This document shows positions 6,692 through 12,286 of a stretch of 43,585 bases of DNA, piece by piece; positions within the stretch are counted from its first letter, which is position 1, and the number at the start of each line of letters is the position of its first letter. The notes beneath the pieces were generated by a model. The model saw only the letters and a program-made list of their open reading frames with translations, was not told the DNA's origin and did no database searches. The position numbers and the translations under genes are program-made. The DNA comes from Candidatus Colenecus caballi. Its GTDB lineage: Bacteria; Bacteroidota; Bacteroidia; Bacteroidales; Bacteroidaceae. Location: positions 1-43,585 of the forward strand of contig JAGHSY010000105.1 of assembly GCA_018065615.1 (NCBI GenBank). Reading direction: 5' to 3'.

Positions 6692-7636
6692 ATGTCAACG
6701 AAATTCATTCATCTCTGCTTTTCGTCCTACTCCGAAGTAATGTTCCGTAATCATGAAGACTATGTTCGCGGGATTAACGATCTGATTATTGCATCTTACA
6801 AAACCGGAACTACCATTCTGGCTTATGTTTTAATGTCCAATCATGTGCACTGCTGCATTCAGACACAAAAAGATCCTCAAGAACTGCATCGGATTTTTAA
6901 AACATCATACGGCCGGTATTTCTCGGCCAAATATGGTCGGAAAGGCAACATTGGTGATTTGGACGTAAAAATTGTCAGCATTGAAGGCTATCAGCATTGC
7001 CTTACAGCTATCAGCTACTGTCTAAGGAATCCCCTTCACCATGGCGTAACAGATTCTCCATTAAACTACCCATATTCATCGGTCGCAGCATATTTCCGGG
7101 ACAGCATGGGTCTTGGTCCATTCCCAAAAACAAAAAGCCACTGTCCCAGACGGCTCACCCCTGCCAATGTTGCAAAACCTAATGGTTTACGTTTTGACCC
7201 CGATGGGCGGGCATCGCTTGACACTTCAGTTGACTACGAGCAGGTTGAAATGCTGTTTAAGACGCCCAATGAATTCATTTACAATATGATGATCAGAAAG
7301 AGCGGCAAGAAATGGCGTGACGACCAGTCAGATGACAACACAGGCAAGCCCGTAACATTGGAAATGTTGGAATCTGATTACTTTCTTGTTCAGGAAATGG
7401 AAAAGCACGAACGCTTCAAATTCAAAGTAACAGAAATATCAGACTGCTCAATTTGCAATATCATTGATAATGAACTGATTCCGAAATCAGACTTAAAGTC
7501 CGTGTATTTTCTGTCCATTGAACAGCAATTGTCTATTGGGCATTATCTTCATTCCAAGTATTCCTGCTCACTTGCGCAGATTGCCCGTTGTCTTGCCGTC
7601 AGTGATGATTCATTCTTCAGGTTATTTCATAAATAA
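6692..7636 (+). CDS. REP-associated tyrosine (Y1/HUH) transposase
   Basis: A 314-residue protein with the two signatures of Y1 transposases: the HUH metal-binding motif H51-V-H53 (LMSNHVHCCIQ) and a catalytic tyrosine, Y109, in ISYCLRNPLHHGV, followed by NYPYSSVAAY. This Y-x-x-x-NP plus YPxSS pattern is typical of RAYT (TnpA_REP) proteins, which nick single-stranded DNA at REP hairpins. The C-terminus (about 265-314) resembles a helix-turn-helix (CSLAQIARCLAVSDDSFFRLF), as in many Bacteroidetes members. The gene is AT-richer than its neighbours and is bracketed by 71-bp imperfect inverted repeats and GATGCAC hairpins. All catalytic residues are present, so it may be active. Confidence 0.88.
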   Translation: MSTKFIHLCFSSYSEVMFRNHEDYVRGINDLIIASYKTGTTILAYVLMSNHVHCCIQTQKDPQELHRIFKTSYGRYFSAKYGRKGNIGDLDVKIVSIEGYQHCLTAISYCLRNPLHHGVTDSPLNYPYSSVAAYFRDSMGLGPFPKTKSHCPRRLTPANVAKPNGLRFDPDGRASLDTSVDYEQVEMLFKTPNEFIYNMMIRKSGKKWRDDQSDDNTGKPVTLEMLESDYFLVQEMEKHERFKFKVTEISDCSICNIIDNELIPKSDLKSVYFLSIEQQLSIGHYLHSKYSCSLAQIARCLAVSDDSFFRLFHK

Positions 7637-7804: not shown

Positions 7805-8884
7805 TCAGGCATTCCTTATTTTCAGATAGTTGCAGGAGAGCATACGGTCACCGTCGCCGCGCAGGTGCATGGCGCCGCCCTGGCAGTAACGCCACACGCC
7901 GCACGCACGGCACTCGTCCTTCTTCATCCATTTGCGGTTGCGGTACAGCTGGAACCTGTTCTCCCATACGTCCCAGAAGCGGTCAGTGTGAATGTTGCCC
8001 TGATGGTAGTCGCTGCGTATGCTCAGGCAGCCCGATATTGAACCGTCACTGAGAATGGAAGCCACGCTCACGCCCGCTATACAGTTGAAATAGTGGTCAC
8101 GCGCCAGACCTTCATACGGTCCCAGGAAGCCTTCACAGGCAAAATTCAGTCCGATGCGGCCCTCCTGACGCGTCCTTGTTATGAAATCCATGAGCTGCAC
8201 GAACTGCTCATTGGAAAGCATAAGCTCCGGATCATCGACAGCACGCCCCATGGGTGCCACGGTAAATATGCGCCACATCCTGACGCCCCGGCTTATGAGA
8301 TATTCCTTGAGGCGTTCCAGCGAATCGAAATTGCGCCGGTTTACGCATGTGATAAGGTCCCAGGTAAGCACGCCATACTTGGACACCAGCCAGTCAATGG
8401 CGGCATCGGCCCTCTTGAAGCTCAAATCACTGCCGCGCATCCAGTTGTGCTCGGCCTCAAAGCCGTCAAAGCTCATGGCAAACGAATCCAGGCCGGCATC
8501 GACCAGTTCATCGACCTTTTCCTTTGTCAGGAGCATGCCGTTTGAGACCATGCCCCAAATGTATCCGCGCTTCTTGATTTCCCGACCCACCTGGACAATG
8601 TCCGGACGGACAAGCGGTTCGCCACCGGTGGTGATTACCATGACATGATGACGGTTTACGCTTTCAGGAGCTGAATCAAGCACGCCCAGCAGGTCTTCGA
8701 CTGGCGGATCAGGCAGCCCGGCTGTCTTTCGGCAGTCACTGCCGCAGTGACGGCAGCTCAGGTTGCAGCGCAGGGTGCACTCCCAGAACAGCTGGGTAAG
8801 CCTATGTTCCAGCTGTTCCGTCCTGAATGCGGCACGGTTCACTTCAAGTGCCAGTTTTCTTGGAAATGAGAGTTTGCAGTTCAT
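7805..8884 (-). CDS. Radical SAM/SPASM enzyme of an rSAM/lipoprotein system
   Basis: A 359-residue protein. The radical SAM cluster motif CX3CX2C is C40-NLS-C44-RH-C47, with extra cysteines at 36 and 51. The SAM-binding strand TTGGEPLVRPD follows. The C-terminal third has a SPASM-like auxiliary-cluster pattern: FNCIAGVSVASILSDGSISGCLSIR...GNI, then CRACGVWRYCQGG and a final cysteine near the end. Such enzymes usually modify a peptide or protein encoded next door. Its start overlaps the stop of a small YGTP lipoprotein gene (ATGA, 8881-8884). From memory it resembles the TIGR04133 type (rSAM paired with a lipoprotein), unverified. The likely role is post-translational modification of the lipoprotein; the chemistry is unknown. 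Confidence 0.88.
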   Translation of the reverse strand: MNCKLSFPRKLALEVNRAAFRTEQLEHRLTQLFWECTLRCNLSCRHCGSDCRKTAGLPDPPVEDLLGVLDSAPESVNRHHVMVITTGGEPLVRPDIVQVGREIKKRGYIWGMVSNGMLLTKEKVDELVDAGLDSFAMSFDGFEAEHNWMRGSDLSFKRADAAIDWLVSKYGVLTWDLITCVNRRNFDSLERLKEYLISRGVRMWRIFTVAPMGRAVDDPELMLSNEQFVQLMDFITRTRQEGRIGLNFACEGFLGPYEGLARDHYFNCIAGVSVASILSDGSISGCLSIRSDYHQGNIHTDRFWDVWENRFQLYRNRKWMKKDECRACGVWRYCQGGAMHLRGDGDRMLSCNYLKIRNA

Positions 8885-9177
8885 TCTTTCTTCAGTTCCG
8901 CATTGATGCTGTCAATCCTGTCCTGCATTGCCTGATTCTCCTCGGCCCGACGGCGCATGACATCGGGCGTCCCATATATGAGAGCCCGGCGGCGGCTGTC
9001 CAGTATCTGCTGCAATGAATCAGCCTCATGCTGCAGTTCCTGCATGCGCATTTCATTCTGACGGGACTCATTCTGAGCCTTACGGCTTGTCCTGCATGAC
9101 ACAGTCAGGAACATGGCAGAGACTGAACACAGAAGCAGTGCCCAACGTCTTGAAATTGAAATCTTTATCTTTTTCAT
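8881..9177 (-). CDS. Small coiled-coil lipoprotein with YGTP motif, candidate rSAM substrate
   Basis: A 98-residue protein when started at the ATG at 9177, which shares one base with the upstream TGA; a GTG one codon earlier is also possible. A basic N-terminus and hydrophobic stretch lead to the lipobox LTVSC28. The mature part is a highly charged helix (about 36-64), the motif Y68-G-T-P71, and a second charged helix (75-97), so it is probably coiled coil. Lipoproteins paired with this radical SAM type often carry a YG-x-P motif (recalled, unverified), which makes Y68-P71 the natural suspect for a modified site. Its location is predicted to be membrane-anchored facing the periplasm or the surface. 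Both flanking genes overlap it. Confidence 0.8.
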   Translation of the reverse strand: MKKIKISISRRWALLLCSVSAMFLTVSCRTSRKAQNESRQNEMRMQELQHEADSLQQILDSRRRALIYGTPDVMRRRAEENQAMQDRIDSINAELKKE

Positions 9178-10586
9178 CACTGTCTGTATCTTACATTACA
9201 AGCATCAACATTCTTATAAACTGATGCCACATCATGGGTCCCAAATGTTTCAGGAATGGGGTAAAGTTCCGGTATGTTGAATGATTTGAGCGTAGTCCTG
9301 TATAAGTCAGGATCCTTCTGTGGGAGCACAAATGGCTTGCCCAGTGTCCCATCCGGTCCGATGTATGCAATGTACGGCCGTCCGTAAACCAGATCGTCAC
9401 GCTTTGAGGCGAACACCACCCAGCGGCTGTTTGAGCTCCAGCTGTGATAAGTGTCTGCACCATAGGCATTGACCCTGCGCATGGTATCCGTCTTTCTGGT
9501 TCTCAGGTCAACAAGCACCAGTTCACTCTCTGGATGCCACACCGGGAATGTTCCGTACTGCTGGGCTGTTGCCATGAGCCAATGTCCGTCCGGTGATGCC
9601 TTCAGATGACTGAATGACAGGTTTTCACCAGCCTGAATGATTGTAATCACTCTGTCTCCCATTTTACCGGTCTCAGGGTCAAACTCTATCACAGCTATGT
9701 CATAATGCATGTCTGTGGTGCTGTCCGGCTGTTCCACGTGTCTGGCACGACAAAAGAAAATGGTCTTTCCATCGGCCGAAAAACAGGGAAATGTCTCCTG
9801 ATATTCCACGCCACGGACTGCCGGACTGTCTGTTGCTGTCAGACTGTCAAAGTCAAGCACTACAAGGTCACTCTGTGTGTCATAAACCTCCATGCGCAGG
9901 TTCCGCTGCCCGTGAATGGCAAACGCAATGTCCGCGGTAGTGAACACGCCGTAACGGCCGTCAGCCGAGATGTCTCCGTACACGGTATTTCCGGTGAACT
10001 CAGTCCTTGTATTCAGTTTCTTAATCCTGCCGTTCCTGCTCAGAACAGTTCCACCTTCAGATCCGCGCAGATGCATGAATGACGTGCCGGCACGGTTTGA
10101 CGTGTGACAGTTCATGCAGCAATCGTCTGCAATGCGGTTATCGCCAAGAAGACGTGTTCTGAAGCCCTGCATGTCACGTTCTTCAATCTGAATCCCCTTC
10201 CAGACCTCATACGCCGGTTCTATCAGCCTGTAACTGATATAGCGGTCAATTGAGTCCGATGCAACCGTCCATGTAAACTCCCTCTCAAAGCCGTCCGATT
10301 GGACCATGACTGTCAGCTTTCCGCCCTTTTCGGCCTCCAGCATCCTGTGCCAGCGGCCCTGCGGGAAACTGACCAGTCCCTTACGGCCCTTGAACCTGTA
10401 TTCCCCGTTCGCACCGTTGACAGTGACTGCCACCTTCCGGTATCCCACCCTGAAGTTGAGCGGCGCAATGTTGCAGGGGATGGTAACATCGGAATAGTCT
10501 GGAAACATTTCAGTATCCTGCTGCACAGGCTCATACTTGCAGGCGGTCAGCAGCAGGGCAAAAGCCAATAAAAACCTTGTCTTCAT
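9177..10586 (-). CDS. TolB-like beta-propeller lipoprotein with a CxxCH haem motif
   Basis: A 469-residue protein with lipobox LLTAC16, an N-terminal region of about 130 residues, then C157-M-N-C160-H161, the attachment motif of a c-type haem (preceded by another cysteine, C156). The rest contains PD40/WD40-like strands typical of TolB propellers: GDISADGRYGVFTTADI, FPCFSADGKTIFFCRAR, HLKASPDGHWLMATAQ, YHSWSSNSRWVVFASKRDD. It therefore looks like a periplasmic or surface propeller carrying one covalent haem. Its ATG overlaps the upstream TGA (10583-10586) and its own TGA overlaps the lipoprotein start. A role with the radical SAM pair is inferred from this coupling only. Confidence 0.8.
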   Translation of the reverse strand: MKTRFLLAFALLLTACKYEPVQQDTEMFPDYSDVTIPCNIAPLNFRVGYRKVAVTVNGANGEYRFKGRKGLVSFPQGRWHRMLEAEKGGKLTVMVQSDGFEREFTWTVASDSIDRYISYRLIEPAYEVWKGIQIEERDMQGFRTRLLGDNRIADDCCMNCHTSNRAGTSFMHLRGSEGGTVLSRNGRIKKLNTRTEFTGNTVYGDISADGRYGVFTTADIAFAIHGQRNLRMEVYDTQSDLVVLDFDSLTATDSPAVRGVEYQETFPCFSADGKTIFFCRARHVEQPDSTTDMHYDIAVIEFDPETGKMGDRVITIIQAGENLSFSHLKASPDGHWLMATAQQYGTFPVWHPESELVLVDLRTRKTDTMRRVNAYGADTYHSWSSNSRWVVFASKRDDLVYGRPYIAYIGPDGTLGKPFVLPQKDPDLYRTTLKSFNIPELYPIPETFGTHDVASVYKNVDACNVRYRQ

Positions 10587-12286
10587 TTGCGGAATCTGGA
10601 AAAGTCAGTTGACATCAGGTAAAACCAGTAGGTATTCATATATTCCTGCGGAATGTTTTCCCGCTCACGGGCTTTCTGGAAATCAAAATACTTCTCCACA
10701 ACAGCCTGTGACAGATGATACTTTTCAACAGTCTCACGGAACGACTCATCGGAATTGACCGGAGCCATCAATGCCTCCTGGTACAGGGCCGGGACTTCAA
10801 CCAGCTGGTCCAGGCCATTCAGATAATACCTGTCGTAGCCGGCTATGAATGAGTTCATTCTCTTTTCCAGAAGACACATGCACAGCAGGTAGTCAACGGC
10901 AACCTTGTTCAACGGATTGTCCTTCACTATTGAGTTCAGCGACCCGTTCATGTCATACTGGGAAAACATCCTGTCCGAATCCGATGCCCTGTCCCTCAAT
11001 ATCAGATACTCTAATGGAATGCTGTCACGGCCAATGCAGTTACGCATATTTTCAGCCCATGCATGATGGCCCCATGTCTGTGCCAGGATATCCAGATATT
11101 TGCCGGCAACCGCATAGTCACCTGCAATCACTGAAATCTCTGCAAGTTTGCGCAGCATTCTGGATGAGTAATGGCCCGGCAGGACGGTCTGGGCCAAGAG
11201 CGCACAGTCTGTTGCCTGTGACAGGTCACCGGCTTCAATAAGGGCATCGACATTATACATTGAAGCCAGGTACGAACTGTTCTTTGCGGTGTTAAGGAAC
11301 AGCCCTTCTGAAATTCTGTTCTGTTCCACACTAAGCAGCCTGTCAGGAAGGCGGCCCTCAATGGCATAGGACAGATTACGGTAATACAGCCAGTAGGGAT
11401 TGCCTGTTATCTCCTTATCCTTCATGCTCCTGATCTTGTCCCACTGTCCCTGGTATGCGTATGTGCCGGTCTTGACGGCATGTTCCAGACTTCTGTCATC
11501 GGCCTTACATATGAAAACTGATATTATACCATATGACAGGGCGTACCATATCCTTTCCTTTAACACCAGAGAGATGATGATGAAGACCGGCTGCAGCAGA
11601 ATAATCCTGCAATCGGGAACGATATAGTTCTGCAGGACCGGATACAGCATAGTTTGGGAGAATGTCAGGTTGTACAAGCGGCCAAGTATGACCATAGCAA
11701 GCAATCCTGCAAGAGCCAGAGAAATGCCGCGGACAGGTTTCCTGCGGTCAATGAGGCACAGCACCAGAGCCAGGAATGTGGTGTATGAACCCGCCAGGAC
11801 ATACATGACAGGTATGCTGACTGCAAATGCGACAGATCTTATCCTGTCATTTCCAACAAATGTCAGACCATAGGCAGCCCATGTGACCAGCACCAGTCCG
11901 AGAGTCTGCGCCAACGGATAGTTAGGAAATTTCAGGAACGTGAGTTCTAGAAATGCCACAAAAAGTACAAGACTCATGCTGCCTTCCAGTTGCAGCCTTT
12001 TACCAAGCTTTCGGACTCCACAGCATAAAAGGGCCAGAACCGCAACAATAATGATCATGGCAGAAATGCCTCCTGTAAAAAACTGGGTCAGCCAGTCACC
12101 GGCAATTGAAGTGAGAAATGCCGGATTGGACAGATACCAGGCAATTCTTTCAGAAGTCCAAAGGAAAATGCCTGTCTGCTCCTTGAAATCAAGTCTGAAC
12201 TGCGAGCACCTGTACACGACCACAATCAGGATTGCCGTAAAGACAGAAGACAACAACGCAGTAATTATATTCTCTTTTACTTTCAT
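10583..12286 (-). CDS. DUF6057-like polytopic membrane protein with a C-terminal helical domain
   Basis: A 567-residue protein. Residues 1 to about 275 hold roughly nine or ten hydrophobic segments. The remainder is soluble and alpha-helical, with tetratricopeptide-like pairs (SYLASMYNVDALIEAGDLSQATDCALLAQ, AEISVIAGDYAVAGKYLDILAQ). This matches my memory of the Bacteroidetes family DUF6057; no catalytic motif is visible. It is the first gene of the four-gene operon. A good -7 box (TAAGTTTG on the minus strand, 12311-12318) lies about 25 bases upstream. A plausible role is an inner-membrane scaffold or transporter for the propeller and lipoprotein products; this is inference. Confidence 0.78.
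   Translation of the reverse strand: MKVKENIITALLSSVFTAILIVVVYRCSQFRLDFKEQTGIFLWTSERIAWYLSNPAFLTSIAGDWLTQFFTGGISAMIIIVAVLALLCCGVRKLGKRLQLEGSMSLVLFVAFLELTFLKFPNYPLAQTLGLVLVTWAAYGLTFVGNDRIRSVAFAVSIPVMYVLAGSYTTFLALVLCLIDRRKPVRGISLALAGLLAMVILGRLYNLTFSQTMLYPVLQNYIVPDCRIILLQPVFIIISLVLKERIWYALSYGIISVFICKADDRSLEHAVKTGTYAYQGQWDKIRSMKDKEITGNPYWLYYRNLSYAIEGRLPDRLLSVEQNRISEGLFLNTAKNSSYLASMYNVDALIEAGDLSQATDCALLAQTVLPGHYSSRMLRKLAEISVIAGDYAVAGKYLDILAQTWGHHAWAENMRNCIGRDSIPLEYLILRDRASDSDRMFSQYDMNGSLNSIVKDNPLNKVAVDYLLCMCLLEKRMNSFIAGYDRYYLNGLDQLVEVPALYQEALMAPVNSDESFRETVEKYHLSQAVVEKYFDFQKARERENIPQEYMNTYWFYLMSTDFSRFRK

Follow-up and report, generated by a model that had tools for sequence, protein, structure and literature searches.

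A TIGR04133 radical SAM/SPASM enzyme of Bacteroidales and predicted X-Y-G sites in dispersed exported proteins

The splicease PlpXY is reported to excise C8H9NO at X-Y-G sites, its natural sites being MYG and LYG, and to accept whole proteins with no need for the leader of a ribosomally synthesized and post-translationally modified peptide (RiPP) (PMC10533398). In the same account, a PlpA2 core of ten residues, engineered to contain GYG, serves as a tag, the two FtsZ tags accepted by PlpXY both carry RPGYGLPI, i.e. YGxP, and 27 other characterized and 939 predicted splicease systems are cited. PlpX has been placed in IPR026482, with PlpY as its RiPP recognition element (RRE) partner (PMC11002830). 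In this study, we analyzed a window of 43,585 nucleotides from Candidatus Colenecus caballi (Bacteroidales; contig JAGHSY010000105.1), in which a four-gene operon encodes a DUF6057 membrane protein, a beta-propeller, a small lipoprotein, and a radical S-adenosylmethionine (SAM)/SPASM enzyme. This enzyme probably alters a Tyr-Gly (YG) site in several exported proteins, and by analogy with PlpXY the reaction is perhaps the excision of part of the Tyr from the protein chain. Anaerobic sulfatase maturases and QhpD are SPASM enzymes that modify proteins bound for export; each serves one protein family, and their chemistry and motif differ from those of the YG system.

In the limited literature searched, no mention of DUF6057 or of the enzyme family TIGR04133 was found, and the family may already stand among the predicted spliceases. 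No title on TIGR04133 appeared among the best 20-25 of 1,637, 66, and 11,577 splicease-related matches. The titles found for YGxP, TIGR04134, and radical SAM lipoproteins were unrelated, and one match for radical SAM, SPASM, and lipoprotein concerned graspetides. The main text of a survey of RiPP clusters in Bacteroidales contains neither 'lipoprotein' nor 'TIGR04' (PMC10352776), and 'lipoprotein' is absent from a review on radical SAM enzymes in RiPPs (PMC8326336).

The TIGR04133 enzyme and the motif of its neighbors

The enzyme scored 508.6 bits against TIGR04133 (rSAM_w_lipo) of NCBIfam, which exceeds the curated cut-off of 425 bits and bears out the family named in the initial annotation. 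Its Pfam matches were Radical_SAM (73.8 bits) and SPASM (31.6 bits versus a cut-off of 21.5). The CX3CX2C motif at C40/C44/C47 was invariant in 102/102 aligned enzyme rows, an alignment that leaves out fragments such as L002, L095, and L098, and the same was true of C51, C180, C250, C268, C286, C325, C328, C334, and C351. TIGR04133 was present in 66 of the 295 genomes of the order (E 1e-80). The genome of the window has a second TIGR04133 gene (G000:C2 1-1210, L159), with 80% identity and truncated at the contig start. A distant TIGR04133-like frame with an internal stop codon was seen in a genome of the same family (G165:C3 222912-223904); its score of 181.2 bits is under the cut-off.

The best NCBIfam matches apart from TIGR04133 were TIGR04103 (122.3 bits) and then TIGR03913 (114.3 bits), and the nearest solved structure by sequence was PqqE (47.6 bits), which says little on the reaction. 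In a tree of 17 enzymes, the nine TIGR04133 rows, four XYG-associated enzymes, and one Tropicibacter enzyme were on one side, and TIGR04053, MftC, and a Paenibacillus enzyme on the other. The separating branch had a support of 99/98 in this tree, whose rows were chosen from BLAST hits with a small outgroup and whose root is not known. The enzyme is akin to those encoded beside XYG peptides. We take IPR026482 to be the same as TIGR04103 and PlpX to be a TIGR04103 member, which fits a Nostoc plasmid locus where a TIGR04103 enzyme lies between a Nif11 precursor ending in IALYGLPPELF and a gene of 71 residues. XYG was found at the expected place in 3/6 DUF1843 peptides beside two XYG-side enzymes; among the Azospirillum peptides, which adjoin TIGR03913, it was near the N-terminus in 2/3 (LYGGA and PYGVA). 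A plasmid of Agathobacter rectalis (L295, upstream of 3025) encodes an unassigned relative of the XYG enzymes, likewise a radical SAM enzyme, with a 71-residue upstream frame ending in VMYGTGVRM and a major facilitator superfamily transporter downstream; this is a candidate spliceotide locus.

In order to survey the neighbors, all gapped a-b-x-c patterns were counted in the open frames of the 700 nt upstream of the enzyme. Removal of five loci with <750 nt upstream and three with near-identical upstream DNA from 105 enzyme loci left 97 regions, and 284 distal windows from 66 loci with long flanks were used as the control. Here and below, gene calls are mechanical open frames, and most loci are from draft metagenome assemblies. 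YGxP was the top-ranked pattern, occurring in 71/97 upstream regions compared with 11/284 distal windows (z 34.6; next pattern 17.5). The YGRP of the propeller was the sole YGxP in L036, L038, and L047, and the count without these three is 68/97. The looser pattern YG-x(0,3)-P occurred in 84/97 upstream regions compared with 40/284 distal windows, and many loci lacking YGxP had the near forms YGPx or YGVxP (L065, L067, L077, L079, L089, L090, and L101).

The proteins bearing the motif vary widely. They include small coiled-coil-looking lipoproteins with one to three sites (L019, L022, L050, and L053) and longer lipoproteins with the look of CarboxypepD_reg, both folds being assigned by reading. 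Motif-bearing lipoprotein genes stand in tandem in three or four copies in L029, L080, and L102; bearers in L071 and L075 have several sites and no lipobox, and in L066 and L096 the motif is right at the lipid-bearing cysteine. The residue X before YG across the TIGR04133 loci was V (47), E (27), M (17), L (11), I (10), and others, counts that include the propeller and chance frames. In Prevotella-like genomes (L067, L068, L093, and L103), peptides of about 50 residues are encoded on the strand opposite TIGR04133; they have a K-x-Y-x-x-P-x-T-K-V-L-S-type start, YGPP or YGPAP near the C-terminus, and the look of RiPP precursors.

As for the lipoprotein of the window, conservation of its YGTP motif had been set beforehand as a point of refutation: Y68, G69, and P71, together with the lipobox Cys28, were invariant in 12/12 rows of its family. 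No NCBIfam family matched the lipoprotein at 0.01, and Pfam gave DUF4094 only, below the cut-off. With TIGR04134 (lipo_with_rSAM), the locus gave nothing even at E 10 and the genome nothing at 0.001; the one weak match of the genome, on contig C114, scored 18.4 bits versus a cut-off of 39.8. Membership of the lipoprotein in TIGR04134 was therefore ruled out by the lack of a profile match. TIGR04134 exceeded its cut-off in 39/295 genomes, 38 of them with TIGR04133, a pairing from which the TIGR04134 model was probably built. In other clades, TIGR04134 proteins are encoded on contigs apart from that of the enzyme (G129 and G147).

Dispersed proteins with a shared leader

We searched nine genomes, that of the window and eight of its clade, with a model (A1) built from the lipoprotein family. 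Beyond the true neighbors the model matched many proteins; in most of them the match was confined to its first part, and in four it spanned nearly the whole model. A common leader, M-K-I-R-R-I-[RK]-I-x-L-S-[RK]-x-W..., joins these dispersed proteins to the window lipoprotein; their bodies mostly differ, and their YG sites include LMYGVQPP, TAYGPPE, and VVYGPPT. The leader-only model A2 (23 rows, 36 positions) gave 71 matches in 17/17 clade genomes, with 1 to 7 in each. At 0.01 it gave none in 28 other genomes. Of these, three belong to the same family and lack a full TIGR04133, 15 have no TIGR04133 match at 1e-80, and 10 carry TIGR04133 of other clades.

Of 66 distinct leader-bearing proteins whose mature part is 20 residues or longer, 60 have YG-x(0,3)-P in that part, compared with a composition-shuffle expectation of 4.0. 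Orthologues of related genomes were counted separately in this number, and since the clade genomes are related, cross-genome counts are not independent. Among proteins whose leader is not identical to a seed of the model, 35/39 had the motif. The six misses consist of two proteins with YGA (L283 and L287), a weak match cut by the end of the stretch (L182 1-306), a protein changed after the leader (L217), and two longer proteins of different make-up (L214 and L249). Leader proteins contain 69 copies of the motif; in these, the first Pro followed the Tyr by two (40), three (17), four (6), or five (6) residues, and X was M (29), A (25), I (9), V (5), or L (1). Judged from these sequences, Tyr and Gly alone are constant, and the type of site is the X-Y-G of spliceases.

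Most leader proteins of the clade are encoded away from the enzyme. The genome of the window has four leader matches, the first being the window lipoprotein. Another (contig C2) directly follows the second TIGR04133 gene and has LYGPAA, one on C54 has YGSP and YGVP, and one on C88 has YGAY, a motif miss. In 25 within-genome leader pairs without detectable body similarity, drawn from 20 hand-picked leaders of four genomes, the mean proportions of synonymous (pS) and nonsynonymous (pN) differences were 0.78 and 0.38, respectively. By these values the leader is old and under constraint, which acts on signal peptides in any case. CarboxypepD_reg matched 7/10 bodies tested weakly, one of them over the Pfam cut-off. 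In L182 and L184, genes for leader-bearing YG proteins are preceded by extracytoplasmic function sigma factor-like and membrane anti-sigma-like genes (labels by reading).

The modification site and the substrates in trans are well supported by these data. The initial annotation had proposed the lipoprotein as the substrate, with YGTP as the site. The site agrees with the YGxP common to the neighbors of the enzyme; the lipoprotein is outside TIGR04134 and is one of several likely substrates, most of which are encoded elsewhere.

The operon and its DUF6057-propeller pair

The four frames, their three overlaps, the CxxCH motif, the lipobox, and YGTP (Y68-P71) were all present where the initial annotation had placed them.

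Table 1. Coordinates of the operon genes, stop codons included, and of predicted sites within them (aa, amino acids)
Feature	Position	Strand	Length	Basis
DUF6057 membrane protein	12286-10583	-	567 aa	PF19529, 346 bits vs cut-off 29.8
PD40 beta-propeller lipoprotein with CxxCH	10586-9177	-	469 aa	PD40, 39.4 bits
Lipoprotein, predicted enzyme substrate	9177-8881	-	98 aa	Lipobox Cys28
TIGR04133 radical SAM/SPASM enzyme	8884-7805	-	359 aa	508.6 bits vs 425
Predicted modification site I67-Y68-G69-T70-P71 (X-Y-G-x-P)	8965..8979	-		Placed by codon count
Leader, signal-peptide-like, common to the YG proteins of the clade	9070..9177	-	36 residues	Leader alignment A2
CxxCH motif C157-M-N-C160-H161, candidate c-type heme site	10104..10118	-		Placed by codon count

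Stop and start codons overlap exactly as ATGA (10586-10583), TGATG (9179-9175), and ATGA (8884-8881). The 4-nt DUF6057/propeller overlap recurs in 6/11 linked relatives (L036, L037, L038, L040, L046, and L047) and is absent in L035 and L048; L043, L044, and L045, whose mechanical frames begin further upstream, may or may not have it. The other two overlaps are lost in some relatives (e.g. L035 and L040). Fixed proportions of the four products, which had been deduced as probable from the overlaps, do not follow from overlaps alone. Just downstream of the operon, a frame on the + strand (6692-7636) has the look of what we take to be an IS200-type transposase-like protein.

DUF6057 was present in 36/295 genomes of the order (E 1e-10). 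A propeller homologue adjoined it in 29/30 loci, which represent 30 of the 36 genomes including that of the window (the exception was L130, and the homologue was divergent in L128). In 38 longer DUF6057 stretches of 6 to 18 kb, covering mostly the same genes, the propeller was found in 34 (not in L142, L148, L152, and L155) and a TIGR04133 homologue in none. Besides the pair itself, the neighbors of DUF6057 were mainly SusD-like and SusC-like genes (10/38 stretches each; labels by reading), which pointed to no further function. A second, distant pair of DUF6057 and CxxCH propeller is encoded in the genome of the window (G000:C45 39531-42911, L158), and the 14 kb examined there contain no TIGR04133 homologue.

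Seen from the enzyme, DUF6057 and the propeller were beside it in 11/74 named TIGR04133-type loci, all among the 16 closest (at least 65% identity), and neither gene was within the stretch examined in 63/74. The pair was not beside the enzyme in 5/16 closest loci (L034, L039, L041, L042 with only 3.3 kb upstream, and L049). Orthologous propellers were encoded away from the enzyme in the genomes of L034 (73% identity) and L049 (64%), and those of L039, L041, and L042 had distant propellers only (32-34% identity). No lipoprotein gene separates the propeller from the enzyme in L036, L037, L038, and L047, where the two are directly adjacent. The operon is a composite, in which the DUF6057-propeller module has been joined to the enzyme system in the clade of the window; the four families, expected to recur together, were not found together outside this clade among the 74 named loci.

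CxxCH was conserved in 60/60 aligned propeller rows (the window and 59 distinct sequences of 77 long homologues, from 83 hits), and the genome of the window includes a gene for a cytochrome c assembly protein (PF01578, 116.3 bits). Heme in the propeller is therefore plausible. Nothing ties this heme to the enzyme, and the suggested role of the propeller and the membrane protein as maturation partners is unsupported; they form a conserved pair of their own that normally has no such enzyme nearby.

Proposed reaction and comparison with known systems

We consider it fairly probable that the TIGR04133 enzyme serves a system of several substrates as their maturase and acts in the manner of a splicease at X-Y-G sites, a chemistry that we infer from PlpXY. 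The enzyme would act in the cytoplasm on exported proteins prior to their export and would recognize their leader. It would modify the lipoprotein encoded next to it and also, in trans, further proteins that bear the leader. The sites would be X-Y-G, in most cases with a proline after them (I67-Y68-G69 in the window lipoprotein). The modified proteins would then pass through Sec, lose the leader, and be lipidated where a lipobox is present, and DUF6057 and the propeller would be a separate module that joined the enzyme system in the clade.

Several observations weigh against a splicease-type action. The score against TIGR04103 is far under the cut-off of that family (725 bits), and NirJ2 (113.9 bits) and other SPASM families score near it. 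The tree has only three rows beyond the split, two rows of the whole tree are long-branched, and the Tropicibacter enzyme falls on the XYG side without a clear XYG peptide, so that the XYG label needs two changes. YG was missing from the expected place in 1/3 Azospirillum and 2/3 Aureibacter DUF1843 peptides. No PlpY/RRE-like gene recurred beside TIGR04133 in 68 loci, where frames of at least 50 residues were considered and shorter or diverged ones could be missed. YG-x(0,3)-P was missing from the 700 nt upstream in 13/97 loci; in eight of these the site lies further up, downstream, on the opposite strand, or at the very end of the frame (L017, L066, L067, L068, L092, L093, L094, and L103), and five had no convincing site (L031, L034, L086, L087, and L091). 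In addition, most FtsZ tags described for PlpXY failed, including both kinds with RPLYGLPI (PMC10533398).

It is possible, though somewhat unlikely, that the enzyme acts at the YG site with another chemistry, such as a Tyr-centered carbon-carbon or ether cross-link of the cyclophane type, epimerization, or Tyr/Gly oxidation. The SPASM class performs many peptide reactions, NCBIfam families with functions of this sort also score (MftC, 101.2 bits; PqqE, 75.8 bits), and the conserved proline could mark a cross-link site. However, the residue after YG varies and includes Gly (YGGP in L088, L095, L106, and L107) and Pro, a three-residue Y-x-x link would have no fixed partner, with the first P two to five residues past Y, and the constant residues are Y and G alone, as in splicease sites. 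It seems highly improbable to us that YG serves as a structural or sorting signal in these proteins and that the enzyme has a different target. Many motif proteins are lipoproteins or bear signal-like leaders, and the link between YG and the enzyme is predicted from sequence; yet the motif occurs in very different proteins and at varied positions of the chain, including proteins without a lipobox and short peptides, as well as in the TIGR04103-type precursor. The co-occurrence of TIGR04133 with TIGR04134 in 38/39 genomes points the same way, with the reservation that this pairing probably underlies the TIGR04134 model.

Two further explanations concern the propeller. A single four-gene machine, in which the propeller with its heme and the membrane protein aid maturation or read the modified lipoprotein, would account for the overlapping frames, the joining of the genes in the window and in 11/74 named loci, and the PF01578 protein of the genome. 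It was rejected on gene neighborhoods and is very unlikely: the DUF6057-propeller pair occurs without the enzyme (TIGR04133 homologue in 0/38 longer DUF6057 stretches), propellers are apart from the enzyme or only distant in five of the closest relatives, and 63/74 loci have neither gene in the stretch examined. We give the least credence to the propeller itself being the substrate. At a place where YTRP or a similar sequence stands in most unlinked propellers, it reads VYGRP, and YGRP is common to the propellers of the window and of the 11 linked loci, of which L036 and L037 are alike and were aligned once. However, YG there has a single origin on the tree that predates the linkage, the site is within a conserved propeller stretch, and YGKP occurs in G205 and G029, genomes without a TIGR04133 match at 1e-10. 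The propeller was rejected as a substrate on account of this one old origin and the two enzyme-less genomes.

If the enzyme is a splicease, its products may have a function on the cell surface. The beta-residues made by the splicease reaction are stated to confer protease inhibition (section 10 of the review PMC10373908). One may speculate that X is the P1 residue of a surface-held protease inhibitor, which fits small X residues; the reactive ketones might instead tether proteins. A rather doubtful extension is a protein-splicing regulon in the Bacteroidales of the clade, in which one or two spliceases and a shared leader serve to rewrite X-Y-G in a set of surface proteins into ketoamide (backbone alpha-keto-beta-amino acid) warheads. 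X would then be the P1 residue of surface protease traps; the prevailing X residues of the wider family are V, E, M, L, and I. Should the splicease-type action be true, an enzyme family without known function, present in 66/295 sampled genomes of the order, would gain a concrete and testable reaction, and ribosomal beta-amino acids would be common in surface proteins of gut and rumen Bacteroidales, beyond small natural products. Exported proteins encoded at scattered places would be singled out by a signal-peptide leader for radical chemistry in trans. From the X-Y-G-x-P rule, the affected residue and the mass change can be predicted exactly in dozens of proteins.

Among the described systems, TIGR03913 with DUF1843 (the GDL motif system) has a related enzyme (33.0% identity) and XYG in 2/3 Azospirillum peptides, whereas its substrates are short peptides of another family; to our knowledge, no reaction is known for it. 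The TIGR04133/TIGR04134 system of NCBIfam shares with the window an enzyme over the TIGR04133 cut-off and an adjoining lipoprotein with YGxP. In contrast, TIGR04134 does not match the window lipoprotein, the likely substrates of the window are dispersed with a common leader, and DUF6057 and the propeller are added. In comparison with PlpXY, the window enzyme is under the TIGR04103 cut-off, no PlpY-like partner was found, and the predicted substrates are exported proteins with signal-type leaders rather than Nif11/NHLP peptides. On the other hand, both are SPASM radical SAM enzymes, and they have in common X-Y-G with matching X residues and a downstream Pro, as in the YGLP of the accepted tags.

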